Source of the DNA: Acidimicrobiia bacterium
GTDB taxonomy: Bacteria; Actinomycetota; Acidimicrobiia; Acidimicrobiales; Bin134
DNA length: 64,000 bases
Direction: 5' to 3'
NCBI GenBank assembly: GCA_022819825.1
Contig: JAJEGM010000032.1
Span: forward strand, 1-64,000
Made by a program: the position numbers and the translations under genes. Shown here one piece after another: positions 17,764 through 42,763 of the stretch. Every line of letters starts with the position of its first letter. Within the stretch, counting starts at the first letter, position 1. The notes under the pieces are model-generated. The model was not told where the DNA came from, ran no database searches, and was given only the letters and a program-made list of their open reading frames with translations.

Positions 17764-18828
17764 ATGGCCGAGCGCCCATCTTCTGAAACTCCCTTTGAGC
17801 GGATGGACCCTGCCCAAGTATCCGGCCAGAGTTTTGCCATTACTCGCAAAGGCTTCGACCAAATGCAGGTTCAGGCCTATTTGGTGTCGGTGAGCAATCA
17901 GGTCAAAGCAGGCCAGCAGCAAATTCGAGACCTTCGAGAGCAGGTGGCCCAGGCCGAAGGGCAGTCGGAGCCGGATTCTGAGTTCAGTTCGCAGGGGGTC
18001 AAGCTGCTCGACAGCGGTGTGGAGGCGTCTCGTCGGCAAGCCCAGACGGAAGCCGACGAAATGGCGGCCCGGGCCCGCCGGTTGGCTGAAGAGCTCCAGA
18101 CGACGTTCGAGGAGTTGCGTTCGCACCAGGACTTCTCCGGAGCCGACGAGCTGGCAGAACTGCTGGAGCAGGCGTACGAGCAGGCTCAGGCGGTGGCAGG
18201 CTTGCTCCAGGAGGCTCGAGATCAGGCCGAGGCCGAGGTAGAGCACGGTCGGGCCCAAGGTCGGGAGATAGTGGAGCAGGCCAAAGCCCTCCGCCTCACC
18301 GTGCTGCGGGACATGGCCCGGCGTCGCCAGGGTGCCCGGGCTCAGGTGGAGCGGCTTCGAGCCGGGCGCGACAAGCTCATCTCAATGCTGAGCGATGCCC
18401 GGAGTTCCATCGACCAGTCGATGGAAACGGCCAGGCTCTCGCTGGCCGAGGCCAAAGTGCTGGCCGATGCCGCCGCTCGCCGGATTGAAGACGAGGCTGA
18501 GCCCACCGACCTGGCCCTGTTGTCGGAGCTGGACGATGCCGAGGACGTGGGGATGATCCCCGAACCCGCGGTCGTTCCCGATATTTCCGAAGGCGATTCC
18601 CCTCCCGATGTTCCCGAAACCGATTCCGCTTCCGAGATCCACGAGGGCGTGACGCTGCTGCCTCCCTTGGAGCCCGATCCGGTGGAGGCTGCGGCCGATC
18701 ATCCCGCGGTGGCCAGTGCTGACGACAGCCGCGATGTGGACGCTATCTTCGCCCGTCTTCGATCCCAGGGGGATCAGCAACGAGAAGACGGACGGGACGC
18801 TGCCGAATCCTCGGTCGGCAAGGACTAA
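17764..18828 (+). CDS. DivIVA-domain coiled-coil protein
   Basis: This 354-residue protein starts with a DivIVA/Wag31-like segment (F-A-I-T-R-K-G-F-D-Q-M-Q-V-Q-A-Y-L near residues 22-38). Long coiled coils rich in Ala, Gln, Glu and Arg follow to about residue 240, then an acidic Pro/Asp-rich tail. Such proteins gather at curved membranes and organise cell poles or division sites. There is no membrane helix. It is much longer at the C-terminus than a minimal DivIVA. The ATG lies 6 bases after TAAGAT. Together with mreB nearby it suggests a loose cell-shape neighbourhood. Confidence 0.8.
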   Translation: MAERPSSETPFERMDPAQVSGQSFAITRKGFDQMQVQAYLVSVSNQVKAGQQQIRDLREQVAQAEGQSEPDSEFSSQGVKLLDSGVEASRRQAQTEADEMAARARRLAEELQTTFEELRSHQDFSGADELAELLEQAYEQAQAVAGLLQEARDQAEAEVEHGRAQGREIVEQAKALRLTVLRDMARRRQGARAQVERLRAGRDKLISMLSDARSSIDQSMETARLSLAEAKVLADAAARRIEDEAEPTDLALLSELDDAEDVGMIPEPAVVPDISEGDSPPDVPETDSASEIHEGVTLLPPLEPDPVEAAADHPAVASADDSRDVDAIFARLRSQGDQQREDGRDAAESSVGKD

Positions 18829-22366: not shown

Positions 22367-23065
22367 CTAGTCGATCTCGGTGCGGTTGAGGCGCCAGGAG
22401 GTGTAGAGGAGTCCGGCCACGCCGACAGCCAGCGGCACGATGTACGACGTCAGCGTGGAGCGGTCGGCCAGTCGCATGCTCACGTCGGTGGCGTCGGAGA
22501 GGATGCTCATGGGGTAGCTGCGAATGGAGAGGCGGGCGAACCAGTCGCCCAGCCGGGACATCAGCAGCTCCCAGATGGCGATGTAGCCCAGCCCGATAAG
22601 CAGGGATCGCTTGAACCGCAGACCTAAGGCCAAGAAGATCCCCGAGTAGGCGAATACTGCCAGCGCGGTGGCCACCGCAGTTGCCGCCACCAACTCGTCG
22701 ACCCCGGTGATAACCGCAGCCACGGTCATGACCACCACCAGGGTCGGCGCCACCACGGTCAACACTGCGGCCATGGCTGCGGTGGCGATCGAATGGCGGC
22801 TGACGGGGCGTAGCCACAGATACACCAGGGTGCGGTCTTCCACCAGATTGCCGAGCGCGGCTGAGCCCAGCGACAAGGCGATGAAGGCGGCGAAGATGTT
22901 GATACCGAAGTTGGCGATGGTCCGGGTGGCGACTTCCACCGTGTCGTCGGCTGCTCTGGCGGTAAAGGCCAGCAGAATTGCCACGCCGCTCAGCCCGGCC
23001 AATACCAGCAACCGGGCCGGGCTCAGCTGAGTGCGGAGGATAACCCGATACACCGCGAGGTTCAC
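22367..23065 (-). CDS. ABC-2 type permease
   Basis: This 232-residue membrane protein has about six helices, the first at residues 18-34 (L-V-L-A-G-L-S-G-V-A-I). The V-E-D-R-T-L-V-Y-L-W-L-R-P segment near residue 75 is typical of ABC-2 permeases, in the cytoplasmic loop that meets the ATPase. It is the last gene of the nine-gene ABC block, paired with the ATPase at 23108. Its GTG start overlaps the stop of a tiny ORF built from a tandem repeat (see 23063). The substrate is unknown; export is likely. Confidence 0.85.
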   Translation of the reverse strand: MNLAVYRVILRTQLSPARLLVLAGLSGVAILLAFTARAADDTVEVATRTIANFGINIFAAFIALSLGSAALGNLVEDRTLVYLWLRPVSRHSIATAAMAAVLTVVAPTLVVVMTVAAVITGVDELVAATAVATALAVFAYSGIFLALGLRFKRSLLIGLGYIAIWELLMSRLGDWFARLSIRSYPMSILSDATDVSMRLADRSTLTSYIVPLAVGVAGLLYTSWRLNRTEID

Positions 23066-23113
23066 TGTTTCTCCCGATGCGTTGTCACTGTGCCTCCAGA
23101 TGCGTTGTCACTG
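23063..23113 (-). repeat. 23-base tandem repeat carrying two micro-ORFs at an ABC gene junction
   Basis: Two 23-base units (23063-23085 and 23086-23108, 20 of 23 identical) plus the start of a third fill the gap between the ATPase and its permease. Read on the minus strand, each unit opens with GTGACAACGCAT and carries GGAGG or GGAGA just before the next GTGA. This makes two 8-codon ORFs, 23085-23111 (Met-TTHLEAQ) and 23062-23088 (Met-TTHREKQ). The ATPase stop overlaps the first GTG, the first stop overlaps the second GTG, and the second stop overlaps the permease GTG. Translation of either peptide is unproven. Confidence 0.65.
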
Positions 23114-24043: not shown

Positions 24044-24912
24044 CCGTTGACCTCGATTCGCTGGTAGCGCCATCGGGCAAACCATCCGAACACGACGATG
24101 AGCCCGAGGAAGGTAAGAAGAATCGGCAGAGTCTCCACATTTCTAATGGGGGGTCCGTCGGGATTGACCTCTCCGTAGATGCGGTAGACGGTCTCGATGG
24201 GCAGGGCGATCATGTTCAGCAATGCGAACGAGTCGCCCACCTCGGCACCTTCGGCAAGCCCATCGCCTACTGCGGCGGATACCAGCAGGCTGACGAAGAT
24301 GGCCACGCTGGCCAGCGTTCGGCGAGGGGAGAGACTGGAAATGGCCAGCGCCAGCGACCCCCAGAAGGCAGCCATGGCCAGGCCTGAGGCCAGCACCCGG
24401 CCGAATTCGATCAACCAGTCGATAGCGCCGTCGGGTCCACTGCCATCCAAAGTGAAGGCGATCAGCATCAGCAGAGTTGGCCCGATCGTCATGACGCCTA
24501 GCACGGCGATCACGGCAACAAACTTGGAGGCCAGGTAGGTGTCCCGGTTCAAGGGAGAGGCCAGATATAGCCCGAGCATGCCGCTGCGGCGGTCGGTGCA
24601 GAGGGCCTCGGGGGTCACAAAGGAGGTGAACAAGAACAGCACGAAGGAGATGGGCACGTAGTACCCGGCCGGATCCCCTAGATCTAAGTCGCTGCTCGCG
24701 GGAAGCAGGGCTGCAAGGCCGATGAACACGATGGCCGGCACGAAAGCAACCAGCAGGGCTATTGCCGGCATGACCTTCTGCCAGTTGGACCGCTTCAGGC
24801 CCAGCACCCGCTGCGCGGTGTGATAGCTCAAGACCACCATGGCGCGCCCTGGCCCATGACGGGGACCGTCGTAGGACAAGTTGCCTCGGTCGTGGATTTG
24901 TGCCTCGGTCAT
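24040..24912 (-). CDS. ABC-2 type permease
   Basis: This 290-residue permease has about six membrane helices, with the cytoplasmic segment T-D-R-R-S-G-M-L-G-L-Y-L-A-S-P-L near residue 105 that is typical of ABC-2 permeases of the NatB/NosY type. Its ATG overlaps the stop of a 17-codon ORF (ATGA), and its own stop overlaps the next ATPase start. Probably exports a substrate or modifies the membrane; the substrate is unknown. Confidence 0.87.
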   Translation of the reverse strand: MTEAQIHDRGNLSYDGPRHGPGRAMVVLSYHTAQRVLGLKRSNWQKVMPAIALLVAFVPAIVFIGLAALLPASSDLDLGDPAGYYVPISFVLFLFTSFVTPEALCTDRRSGMLGLYLASPLNRDTYLASKFVAVIAVLGVMTIGPTLLMLIAFTLDGSGPDGAIDWLIEFGRVLASGLAMAAFWGSLALAISSLSPRRTLASVAIFVSLLVSAAVGDGLAEGAEVGDSFALLNMIALPIETVYRIYGEVNPDGPPIRNVETLPILLTFLGLIVVFGWFARWRYQRIEVNG

Positions 24913-24974
24913 CGGGAGGCCTCGGCAAGAATCCGTTCGAAGGCAGCCCGGGCCTCAGTCATCGGGAGGCCTCG
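24902..24974 (-). repeat. Duplicated gene junction with a 17-codon micro-ORF
   Basis: A 23-base sequence is present at 24902-24924 and 24952-24974 (22 of 23 identical, 50 bases apart). Each copy spans the end of one frame (Glu-Ala-Ser-Arg-stop) and the start of the next (Met-Thr-Glu-Ala). Between them lies a complete small ORF, 24909-24962 on the minus strand, encoding MTEARAAFERILAEASR. It overlaps the ATPase stop at one end and the permease start at the other by ATGA. The ATPase ends in the same E-A-S-R and the permease begins M-T-E-A, so the ORF joins copies of both ends. Confidence 0.65.
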
Positions 24975-25864
24975 ATGAACACGTCTTCCAGGGTGGTCCG
25001 GCGAGGCTCCAGACGGCGCAGGCCCAAGTCCAGATCGGCCACAAGGTCCCGAACCAGATCGCCGATCTCGTCGACGCCGGTCACGGTGATGATGTGCCCG
25101 TCGATGGTTGCTTGCGCGCCTCGGGCCGCCAGTGCAGCGGCCAGCGGCTGGGGATCGGAGTCCAACTCCACCTTCACTCCCGATGCGGCCGACCCCAGGC
25201 CATCGAGGGCGCCGCTGTGGCCCACCACGCCGTTAGCCAGGATGACCACCGAATCGCACACCCGCTCCACTTCCTCCAGCAGGTGCGACGACAGCAGGAT
25301 GTCAATGCCGAACTCGCGGCCCACTCGTCGGATGAGGGCCAGCATGTCGTCGCGCTGCACTGGATCGAGGCCGTCGGTGGGCTCGTCCAGTAGAAGCAGG
25401 TCGGGATCATGGGCGATGGCCTGGGCCATCTTCACCCGCTGGCGCTGACCGGTGGACATGGTGCCGATGGGGCGGAACCGCTCCTCGCCCAGGCCCACCT
25501 GCCAGAGGGCGTCACTGGCCCTCTCGGTGGCCGCCCGTCGGGGCAGCCCGTGGAGTTGGGCAATGTGGCGCACCAAATCGGCGGCCTGCACATCGTCGGG
25601 CAGATCGTGATGTTCGGGGGCATAGCCCAGTCGGGCACGCAGTTCAGGCCCGCTCTGGTCGGGGTCGACTCCCAGTACATTGAGCGTGCCGCCTTGACGG
25701 GGGCGCAGTCCCAACACCAACCCCATGAAGGTGCTCTTGCCCGCACCGTTCGGTCCCAACAGCCCGGTGATGCCCGGTCCGATGTCGCAATCCAGGCCCT
25801 GGAGCACGTGGTTCGACCCGTAGCTCTTTTGCACTCCTCGGGCGGAGATCACGATGTCGGACAC
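24959..25864 (-). CDS. ABC transporter ATPase (export type)
   Basis: This 301-residue ATPase has Walker A G-P-N-G-A-G-K-S-T near residue 40, signature M-S-T-G-Q-R-Q-R, and Walker B L-L-L-L-D-E-P-T-D-G-L-D. The frame stays open upstream into dppF, but GTG 25864 (V-S-D-I-V-I-S-A-R-G) is where ABC homology begins. It partners the permease at 24040 across the 17-codon micro-ORF. The gene follows dppF by 11 bases, so it is probably part of the same transcript as the peptide importer. Confidence 0.9.
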   Translation of the reverse strand: MSDIVISARGVQKSYGSNHVLQGLDCDIGPGITGLLGPNGAGKSTFMGLVLGLRPRQGGTLNVLGVDPDQSGPELRARLGYAPEHHDLPDDVQAADLVRHIAQLHGLPRRAATERASDALWQVGLGEERFRPIGTMSTGQRQRVKMAQAIAHDPDLLLLDEPTDGLDPVQRDDMLALIRRVGREFGIDILLSSHLLEEVERVCDSVVILANGVVGHSGALDGLGSAASGVKVELDSDPQPLAAALAARGAQATIDGHIITVTGVDEIGDLVRDLVADLDLGLRRLEPRRTTLEDVFIEASR

Positions 25865-25875
25865 TGGGCGAAACC

Positions 25876-26904
25876 CTATCCCTGGTCTGACCCCATTAGG
25901 TCGTCGGGGGTGGGGAAGTGGCAGGCAACCGGGTGTCCGATGCCAAGATCGAGCAACTCCGGGTCGTACTCGGCGCATATCGACTGCGCCTTCCAACATC
26001 GGGTCCGAAAGCGGCATCCCGAAGGGGGCGCGGCTGGGTTGGGCGCGTCCCCTTCCAGCACGATGCGCCTTCGCCTCTTCTCGAGCTTGGGGTCGGGAAT
26101 GGGTACTGCGGACAGCAAGGCCTGGGTGTAGGGATGAGCCGGGGTTTCGTACACTTCCGGCCCGGTACCCGTCTCCACGATCCGTCCCAGATACATCACT
26201 GCCACCCGATCGGAGATGTGGCGCACCACCGATAGATCGTGGGCCACGAACAGGTAGGTGAGTCCCAGTTGGCGCTGGAGATCTTCCAGCAGGTTGAGCA
26301 CGCCAGCCTGAATGCTCACGTCGAGGGCTGACACCGGCTCGTCCAGGATGATCAGCTCGGGTTCGAGGGCGAGGGCTCGGGCGATTCCGATGCGCTGGCG
26401 CTGGCCGCCGGAGAACTCGTGAGGGTAGCGATTGCCGTGCTCGGGGTTCAGCCCAACCAGCTCCAGCAGTTCGCCCACCCGAGTCTGGATGTCGTCGCTG
26501 GCGCGGTGGATTCGCAGGGGCTCGGAGATGATGGCCGAGACCGTCATGCGGGGGTCGAGGGAGGCCATCGGGTCTTGGAACACGATCTGCATGTTTTGGC
26601 GCAGGGCCTGAAGCTGGCGGCGGCTCAGGTCGGCCAGCTCTTGGCCTTTGAATCGCACTGAGCCCGAGGTGGGCTGGATGAGGCGGAGAATGCAGCGGGC
26701 GATGGTGGATTTGCCGGACCCTGATTCTCCTACCAGTCCTAGGGTCTCTCCCTGATTGATGTGCAGGGACACGCCGCTTACGGCTTGGACGGTGCCCACG
26801 GTGCGGCGGATTACGCCTTTGGACTTTATGGGGAAGGTCTTGACCAGGTCGGTGACTTCTACCAGGGGTTTACCATCCCCCGGCAGGTCGGCGGGGCTAG
26901 ACAT
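25876..26904 (-). CDS. dppF: Oligopeptide/dipeptide ABC importer ATPase (DppF/OppF type)
   Basis: This 342-residue ATPase has Walker [10 protein letters not shown] near residue 59, signature F-S-G-G-Q-R-Q-R and Walker [13 protein letters not shown]. The C-terminal oligopeptide domain contains the cysteine motif G-C-R-F-R-T-R-C, with further cysteines nearby, as in OppD/F proteins that carry a [4Fe-4S] cluster. The start overlaps the end of dppD by 8 bases. Substrates are probably peptides, but nickel or glycoside importers share this family. Confidence 0.92.
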
Positions 26905-42687: not shown

Positions 42688-42704
42688 TCAAGAGTGCTGC
42701 TGCG

Positions 42705-42763
42705 ATGACCGGCGATAATCCGCCGGTGCTGCCCTGATGAACGGCGATAATCCGCCGGTGCTG
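42705..42763 (+). repeat. Duplicated gene start creating a 10-codon micro-ORF
   Basis: A 27-base sequence occurs at 42705-42731 and 42737-42763 (26 of 27 identical, offset 32 bases). The second copy is the start of the MFS gene (M-N-G-D-N-P-P-V-L-E). The first, in another frame, encodes MTGDNPPVLP and stops at TGA 42735-42737, sharing one base with the MFS ATG. Neither copy has a strong Shine-Dalgarno sequence. It looks like a recent tandem duplication that left an upstream ORF translationally joined to the real gene. Confidence 0.7.

Follow-up and report, generated by a model that had tools for sequence, protein, structure and literature searches.

Between an ABC transporter ATPase gene and the permease gene that follows it, two tandemly repeated 8-codon micro-ORFs form a bridge in which every stop codon overlaps the next start codon. 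The number of repeat units varies among related genomes while the overlaps are kept, and bridges of different sequence but the same phase recur at other gene junctions. The arrangement is probably best explained as a duplication-prone chain of micro-ORF bridges, in which units are added by duplication and retained by selection where they keep stop and start coupled; we infer from sequence comparison that ribosomes translate the micro-ORFs, that selection acts on coupling and that duplication is the mechanism. The window, i.e. the whole 64,000-nt stretch of DNA analysed, belongs to a marine-type actinobacterium (Acidimicrobiia bacterium, genome G000).

Anatomy of the junction and of its repeat unit

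The junction lies on the minus strand and reads, 5' to 3', CAGTGACAACGCATCTGGAGGCACAGTGACAACGCATCGGGAGAAACAGTGAAC (also given as ...TTGGTGACCCAGTGACAACGCATCTGGAGGCACAGTGACAACGCATCGGGAGAAACAGTGAACCTCGCG...). As the preliminary description had it, three GTGA overlaps (23111-23108, 23088-23085 and 23065-23062, minus strand) chain the ATPase 2 stop, micro-ORF 1, micro-ORF 2 and the permease 2 start, with micro-ORFs of eight codons plus a stop and a repeat unit of 23 nt; the GGAGG or GGAGA it had assigned to each unit was likewise found (Table 1). Tandem Repeats Finder reported the repeat at 23062-23113 (period 23, 2.3 copies, 89% matches, score 83), second by score in the window. The top-scoring tandem repeat in the window has a 32-nt unit (42694-42763, score 112), and a further one has a 27-nt unit (18576-18635, score 78). 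The start of ABC ATPase 2 itself overlaps permease 1 by ATGA (24043-24040) and the end of the gene forms the first GTGA of the chain, while the GTG start of permease 2 is backed by relatives that start at the same place in a direct ATGA overlap. A search of the junction against Rfam matched no family, and RNA folding of the junction relative to shuffles was not unusual (z = 0.24).

Table 1. Positions of the genes, micro-ORFs and bridges discussed in the text; coordinates are those of the window unless a genome and contig are given.
Feature	Position	Strand	Basis
ABC ATPase 1, ORF as listed (true start may be further in)	24959..26017	-	ABC_tran E=1.4e-24
17-codon micro-ORF MTEARAAFERILAEASR*, between ATPase 1 and permease 1; 50-nt unit 24962-24913, ATGA at each end	24909..24962	-	sequence
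ABC-2 permease 1, 290 aa	24040..24912	-	ABC2_membrane_2 E=1.5e-10
ABC ATPase 2, 311 aa	23108..24043	-	Pfam ABC_tran E=1.2e-27
Micro-ORF 1, VTTHLEAQ*, GTGA overlap at each end; repeat unit 1 = 23111-23089	23085..23111	-	sequence
GGAGG, Shine-Dalgarno-like, unit 1, shortly 5' of the next GTG	23093..23097	-	sequence
Micro-ORF 2, VTTHREKQ*, GTGA overlap at each end; repeat unit 2 = 23088-23066	23062..23088	-	sequence
GGAGA, Shine-Dalgarno-like, unit 2, shortly 5' of the next GTG	23070..23074	-	sequence
ABC-2 type permease 2, 232 aa, GTG start	22367..23065	-	weak Pfam ABC2_membrane_4 match, E=3.7e-4, below cut-off
TrkA-TrkH1 (59+11 nt) and TrkH1-TrkH2 (14-nt) bridges	G000:C36:210608-210538 and 209237-209209	-	
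L13-S9 (65-nt unit) and NuoD-NuoH (68-nt unit) duplicated joints	G021:C1:1258283 and 1330792	-	

When 26 units of 23 nt were aligned, the joint's TGA proved invariant and position 1 was only G or A, both of which give start codons. Ten stop codons arose within these units, nine in the frame of the upstream gene, one in the third frame and none in the frame of the micro-ORF. Positions 9-12, between the start and the GGAG, read GCAT in all 26 units, for which no reason was found. The encoded peptides are not conserved across the genus, their residues varying except for an invariant H and a usual final Q. In a search of 22 genomes with the exact pattern, the unit was matched at the ATPase 2-permease 2 locus only, and a looser pattern applied to six genomes added two isolated single matches. 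The units of G010 and G017 encode VNTHRETQ, which resembles permeases that begin VNTHIYRV; derivation of the 23-nt unit from the 5' end of the permease and the 3' end of the ATPase was suggestive only (shuffle p from 0.01 to 0.87 depending on the genome) and is not claimed.

A second bridge occupies the ATPase 1-permease 1 junction of the same operon. The start of its 17-codon micro-ORF resembles the permease and its end resembles the ATPase, and on this resemblance we therefore regard the 50-nt bridge as a duplication of the ATPase 1-permease 1 joint. The junction is a plain NTGA overlap in 18 relatives, and G002 carries another 50-nt bridge there, which may or may not share its origin with that of G000.

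Variation of the junction across the genus and the order

Orthologues of permease 2 were located in 20 further genomes of the same genus, giving a 21-genome comparison with G000; the named relatives are Acidimicrobiia metagenome-assembled genomes (MAGs) from several assemblies, two of which are single-contig chromosomes. The comparison of copy number in related genomes that the preliminary description had proposed revealed 0, 1, 2 or 4 units in separate assemblies. The genes overlap directly by ATGA, with no unit, in G004, G005, G006 and G018; one unit is present in G002, G009, G012, G013 and G015, two in the window genome, G003, G007, G010, G011, G017, G019 and G020, and four in G021. Two genomes carry other units: G008 combines 23- and 29-nt units, the latter containing a copy of the permease 5' end including its start, and G014 has a single 47-nt micro-ORF of unrelated sequence with ATGA at each end. 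(The G008 MAG also holds two differing copies of rpsI, which suggests contamination of that assembly.) Unit lengths at this junction, 23, 29 and 47 nt, are thus all 3n-1, or 2 mod 3. Assembly artefact is an unlikely source of the 23-nt repeat, because separate assemblies of relatives carry the same unit, including the single-contig chromosomes OX638350 (two units) and OX638344 (four units). In G021, G003, G020 and G019 the ATPase TGA is immediately followed by another in-frame stop (TAA or TGA).

Stop-start overlaps of 4 or 1 nt were kept at every step in 20 of the 21 genus genomes, the sole exception being G016, where a TAA is followed by a 3-nt gap. On a tree of the 21 genomes built from flanking coding sequences with the junction left out, unit number required at least 10 changes, about the same as with shuffled labels, and did not cluster; it thus appears that unit number drifts freely, whereas overlap geometry does not. 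Neighbouring units are identical in G021 and in G007. The earlier suggestion that the repeat might be newly arisen did not hold for the repeat itself, whose unit is common to most of the genus, although individual copies come and go. Over the order (70 genomes), the genes at the ABC junction mostly overlap directly, by NTGA or TGATG, and G120, from another family, has an independent 14-nt bridge there, made by duplicating GGCCGTGACGAGCC.

Bridges at other junctions and the phase of repeats

Bridges were also present in the genus at the TrkA-TrkH, TrkH-TrkH, NuoD-NuoH and L13-S9 junctions, with lengths of 11 to 68 nt, all 3n-1; these gene names are our own readings of the sequences, and observations at orthologous junctions are not mutually independent. 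The TrkA-TrkH1 junction varies: G006 and G016 have a direct ATGA, several others an 11-nt bridge, nine genomes 59+11 nt and G017 50+17+11 nt. Its 59-nt unit repeats the TrkA C-terminus RPDTVDEVKRFFG*; in G019, three copies of this C-terminus stand at 59-nt spacing, the downstream TrkH start there not being anchored. TrkH1-TrkH2 carries either one to four copies of a 14-nt unit (ATGAGGCTGGGGCG) or one 17-nt unit, and in the G005 MAG an in-frame TAG interrupts TrkH1. The 68-nt bridge at NuoD-NuoH was found in G021 and G019, the junction being direct in 18 genomes, and the 65-nt bridge at L13-S9 in G021 only, among the genomes read.

The extent to which such geometry departs from chance was estimated by running a simple home-made gene finder over 855 kb of the window's own genome. 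Lone micro-ORF bridges with overlaps at both ends occupied 32 of 286 non-overlapping same-strand junctions, compared with 35 and 25 after random insertion of 1 or 2 nt in the gaps. A lone bridge is therefore at chance level, and lone bridges, as a generic test of chain geometry, were dropped as evidence because they did not exceed the phase-shift control. Similarly, the earlier remark that the geometry looks selected could not be read from this locus alone, because a 23-nt duplication of an existing unit copies the geometry automatically; it draws support from the retention of the geometry in those 20 genomes and at other junctions. The case therefore rests on comparison, and as far as sequences can tell it is recurrence and phase that carry it.

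Phase was assessed by scanning 1.66 Mb of G000 and G021, in a manner itself blind to phase, for repeats in which a stop codon is duplicated along with its flanking sequence. Lengths of 2 mod 3 were observed at 8 of 10 distinct loci with an NTGA joint (14, 20, 23, 50, 56, 59, 65 and 68 nt; one-sided binomial P of at least 8 of 10 at 1/3 = 0.0034), a result that rests on roughly one quarter of each genome, on home-made gene calls and on a small number of independent loci, two of the ten being weak repeats (span 14). At one of the eight (G000 C36, 175110, 20-nt unit) the chain ends before the downstream start and thus shows the phase without a full bridge. The other two NTGA loci were 0 mod 3, one being a weak 12-nt match and the other a 36-nt array in G021. 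This tandem array (G021:C1:186278, plus strand) lies where a crotonase-like gene and an oxidoreductase subunit-like gene meet in an NTGA joint; its repeat is open in frame throughout, and the array may extend the second gene at its N-terminus. No phase was preferred at the four loci lacking an NTGA joint (phases 0, 1, 2 and 2), and within genes the same search gave 59 of 60 repeats at phase 0 and one at phase 2. No junction repeats were found in 400 kb (126 gene pairs) of G023, from another family, a sample too small to judge whether they are limited to the genus.

Explanations and relation to known systems

In the ancestral state, the ATPase stop and permease start would have overlapped directly (NTGA), so ribosomes finishing the ATPase could start the permease. 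Tandem duplication would then place DNA of all lengths between the two genes. An open insert of 3n-1 nt would become a micro-ORF that overlaps the upstream stop with its start codon and the downstream start with its stop codon, and ribosomes could terminate and re-initiate stepwise from the ATPase through micro-ORFs 1 and 2 to the permease, with no untranslated gap. Inserts of any other length would uncouple the genes by a gap, or create a frame that overruns the permease start, and would be selected against. Units would be gained and lost via the CAGTGA direct repeats at their ends; the micro-ORF peptides would have no function of their own, and each unit would also bring a ribosome-binding site. 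Reporters on native gene pairs have shown that coupling drops steeply with distance, a gap of about 20 nt nearly abolishing it (PMC10666635), and inserts between coupled genes should therefore do harm unless they are translated and end on the next start. In some spacing studies coupling withstood gaps of 25-40 nt (review PMC12548453), so bridges may be dispensable. Re-initiation and RNA-unfolding models of coupling would alike favour this stop-start geometry.

The same evidence bears on several other readings. If slippage alone were at work, one chance bridge would have had its geometry copied passively by the 23-nt period without selection, which agrees with the chance level of single bridges and with the ability of any 3n-1 repeat to keep geometry by itself; this is rather unlikely, since independent units of other length and sequence (29, 47, 50, 14, 59, 11, 17, 65 and 68 nt) follow the same rule and no micro-ORF-frame stop occurs among the diverged units. 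Alternatively, the zero to four units could set the ratio of ATPase to permease, ribosomes being lost at each re-initiation step (or gained at each Shine-Dalgarno site) and slippage letting the ratio evolve fast. Labile copy number with retained geometry would suit such a role, as would the identical adjacent units of G021 and G007, which point to recent expansion; yet copy number differs among close relatives and looks random on the tree, so there appears to be no conserved set-point, and neutral drift fits equally well. We regard this role as unlikely, if somewhat less so than slippage alone. A wider reading for the genus, which seems to us doubtful, is that recurrent stop-start duplication is filtered by phase, with core operons (ABC transporters, Trk, NADH dehydrogenase, ribosomal proteins) gaining locus-made relays whose number would adjust the output of the downstream subunit.

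Each unit carries a good Shine-Dalgarno-like site, so the permease might initiate independently, and the units could serve to free its start from ATPase coding sequence by supplying their own site, with the micro-ORFs incidental. A GGA core in nearly all aligned units and the near invariance of columns 15-17 are in keeping with this proposal, but predicted anti-Shine-Dalgarno pairing ranged from -4.3 to -10.3 kcal/mol at starts that follow a unit and was no stronger there than the -9.5 of the three ATGCGATGA relatives that have none, and the phase rule at other junctions would go unexplained, as would the fact that stops are missing from just one frame; we consider it improbable, slightly more so than slippage. 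Far less probable is insertion of a mobile interspersed element of the MIRU type at the stop-start site: the architecture is as described for MIRUs (PMC12548453), whose published lengths, 77 and 53 bp, likewise equal 2 mod 3 (PMC4213456), whereas the 23-nt unit is confined to one locus in all genomes searched and the bridges at other junctions differ in sequence, several being built from local gene ends. Finally, two units put the permease in frame with the ATPase, and in the window this frame is open for 14 codons from the ATPase TGA to the permease GTG (open frame 246 aa), which would permit a fusion protein by stop read-through. The arrangement is not kept in genomes with 0, 1 or 4 units, and in several two-unit relatives the first stop is immediately followed by another in the same frame (e.g. 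TGATAA in G003); as a conserved feature, read-through fusion is thus refuted, and we give it almost no credence otherwise.

If the phase rule holds, natural duplications amount to an unplanned experiment on translational coupling, intergenic DNA can lengthen freely provided that ribosomes are still passed across it, and many species and several operons provide field evidence on selection for overlapping stop-start coupling. The genomes also offer ready-made relays of 0, 1, 2 and 4 steps for measuring the loss per step. Bridges made at their own locus and subject to a phase rule were not found described in the open-access literature searched, and comparison was made with related systems. Direct stop-start overlap is the commonest prokaryotic gene spacing (PMC10666635), and the joint of direct ATGA or TGATG termination-re-initiation pairs is identical to that at every step here, where one to four extra joints stand in series. 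In Salmonella, mgtQ, a small ORF between mgtC and mgtB, promotes translation of the transporter gene (PMC8092293) and is likewise a short ORF in an operon gap ahead of a transporter gene; it uses RNA structure and acidic codons, whereas the bridge described here has repeats, no unusual folding and no conserved peptide. A synthetic 'nonsense' short ORF that contains a binding site and is set immediately ahead of a gene raises the translation of that gene (PMC13255528); that element is engineered and a single unit, whereas those here are natural, lie in operons and are repeated.

The closest known system is the mycobacterial MIRU, an intergenic tandem repeat with a short ORF coupled to its neighbour gene at -4 nt spacing (PMC12548453); in senX3-regX3, the 77- and 53-bp units vary in copy number and type among strains (PMC4213456). 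The three GTGA joints correspond to the MIRU short ORF with -4 nt overlaps in geometry only, the tandem arrangement with variable copy number (0, 1, 2 or 4 units) is found here between species, and both systems have 3n-1 units. MIRUs form one dispersed sequence family that is thought to be mobile, whereas here each junction has its own unit, several of which are copies of local gene ends, interspersed related copies were not found with the exact pattern in 22 genomes, and the units are mostly shorter (11-68 nt). By this analogy the bridge chain probably works like a MIRU but is not one, because the dispersal that defines MIRUs is not seen, and the comparison suggests that MIRU-like coupled repeats can arise by local duplication without a mobile element.
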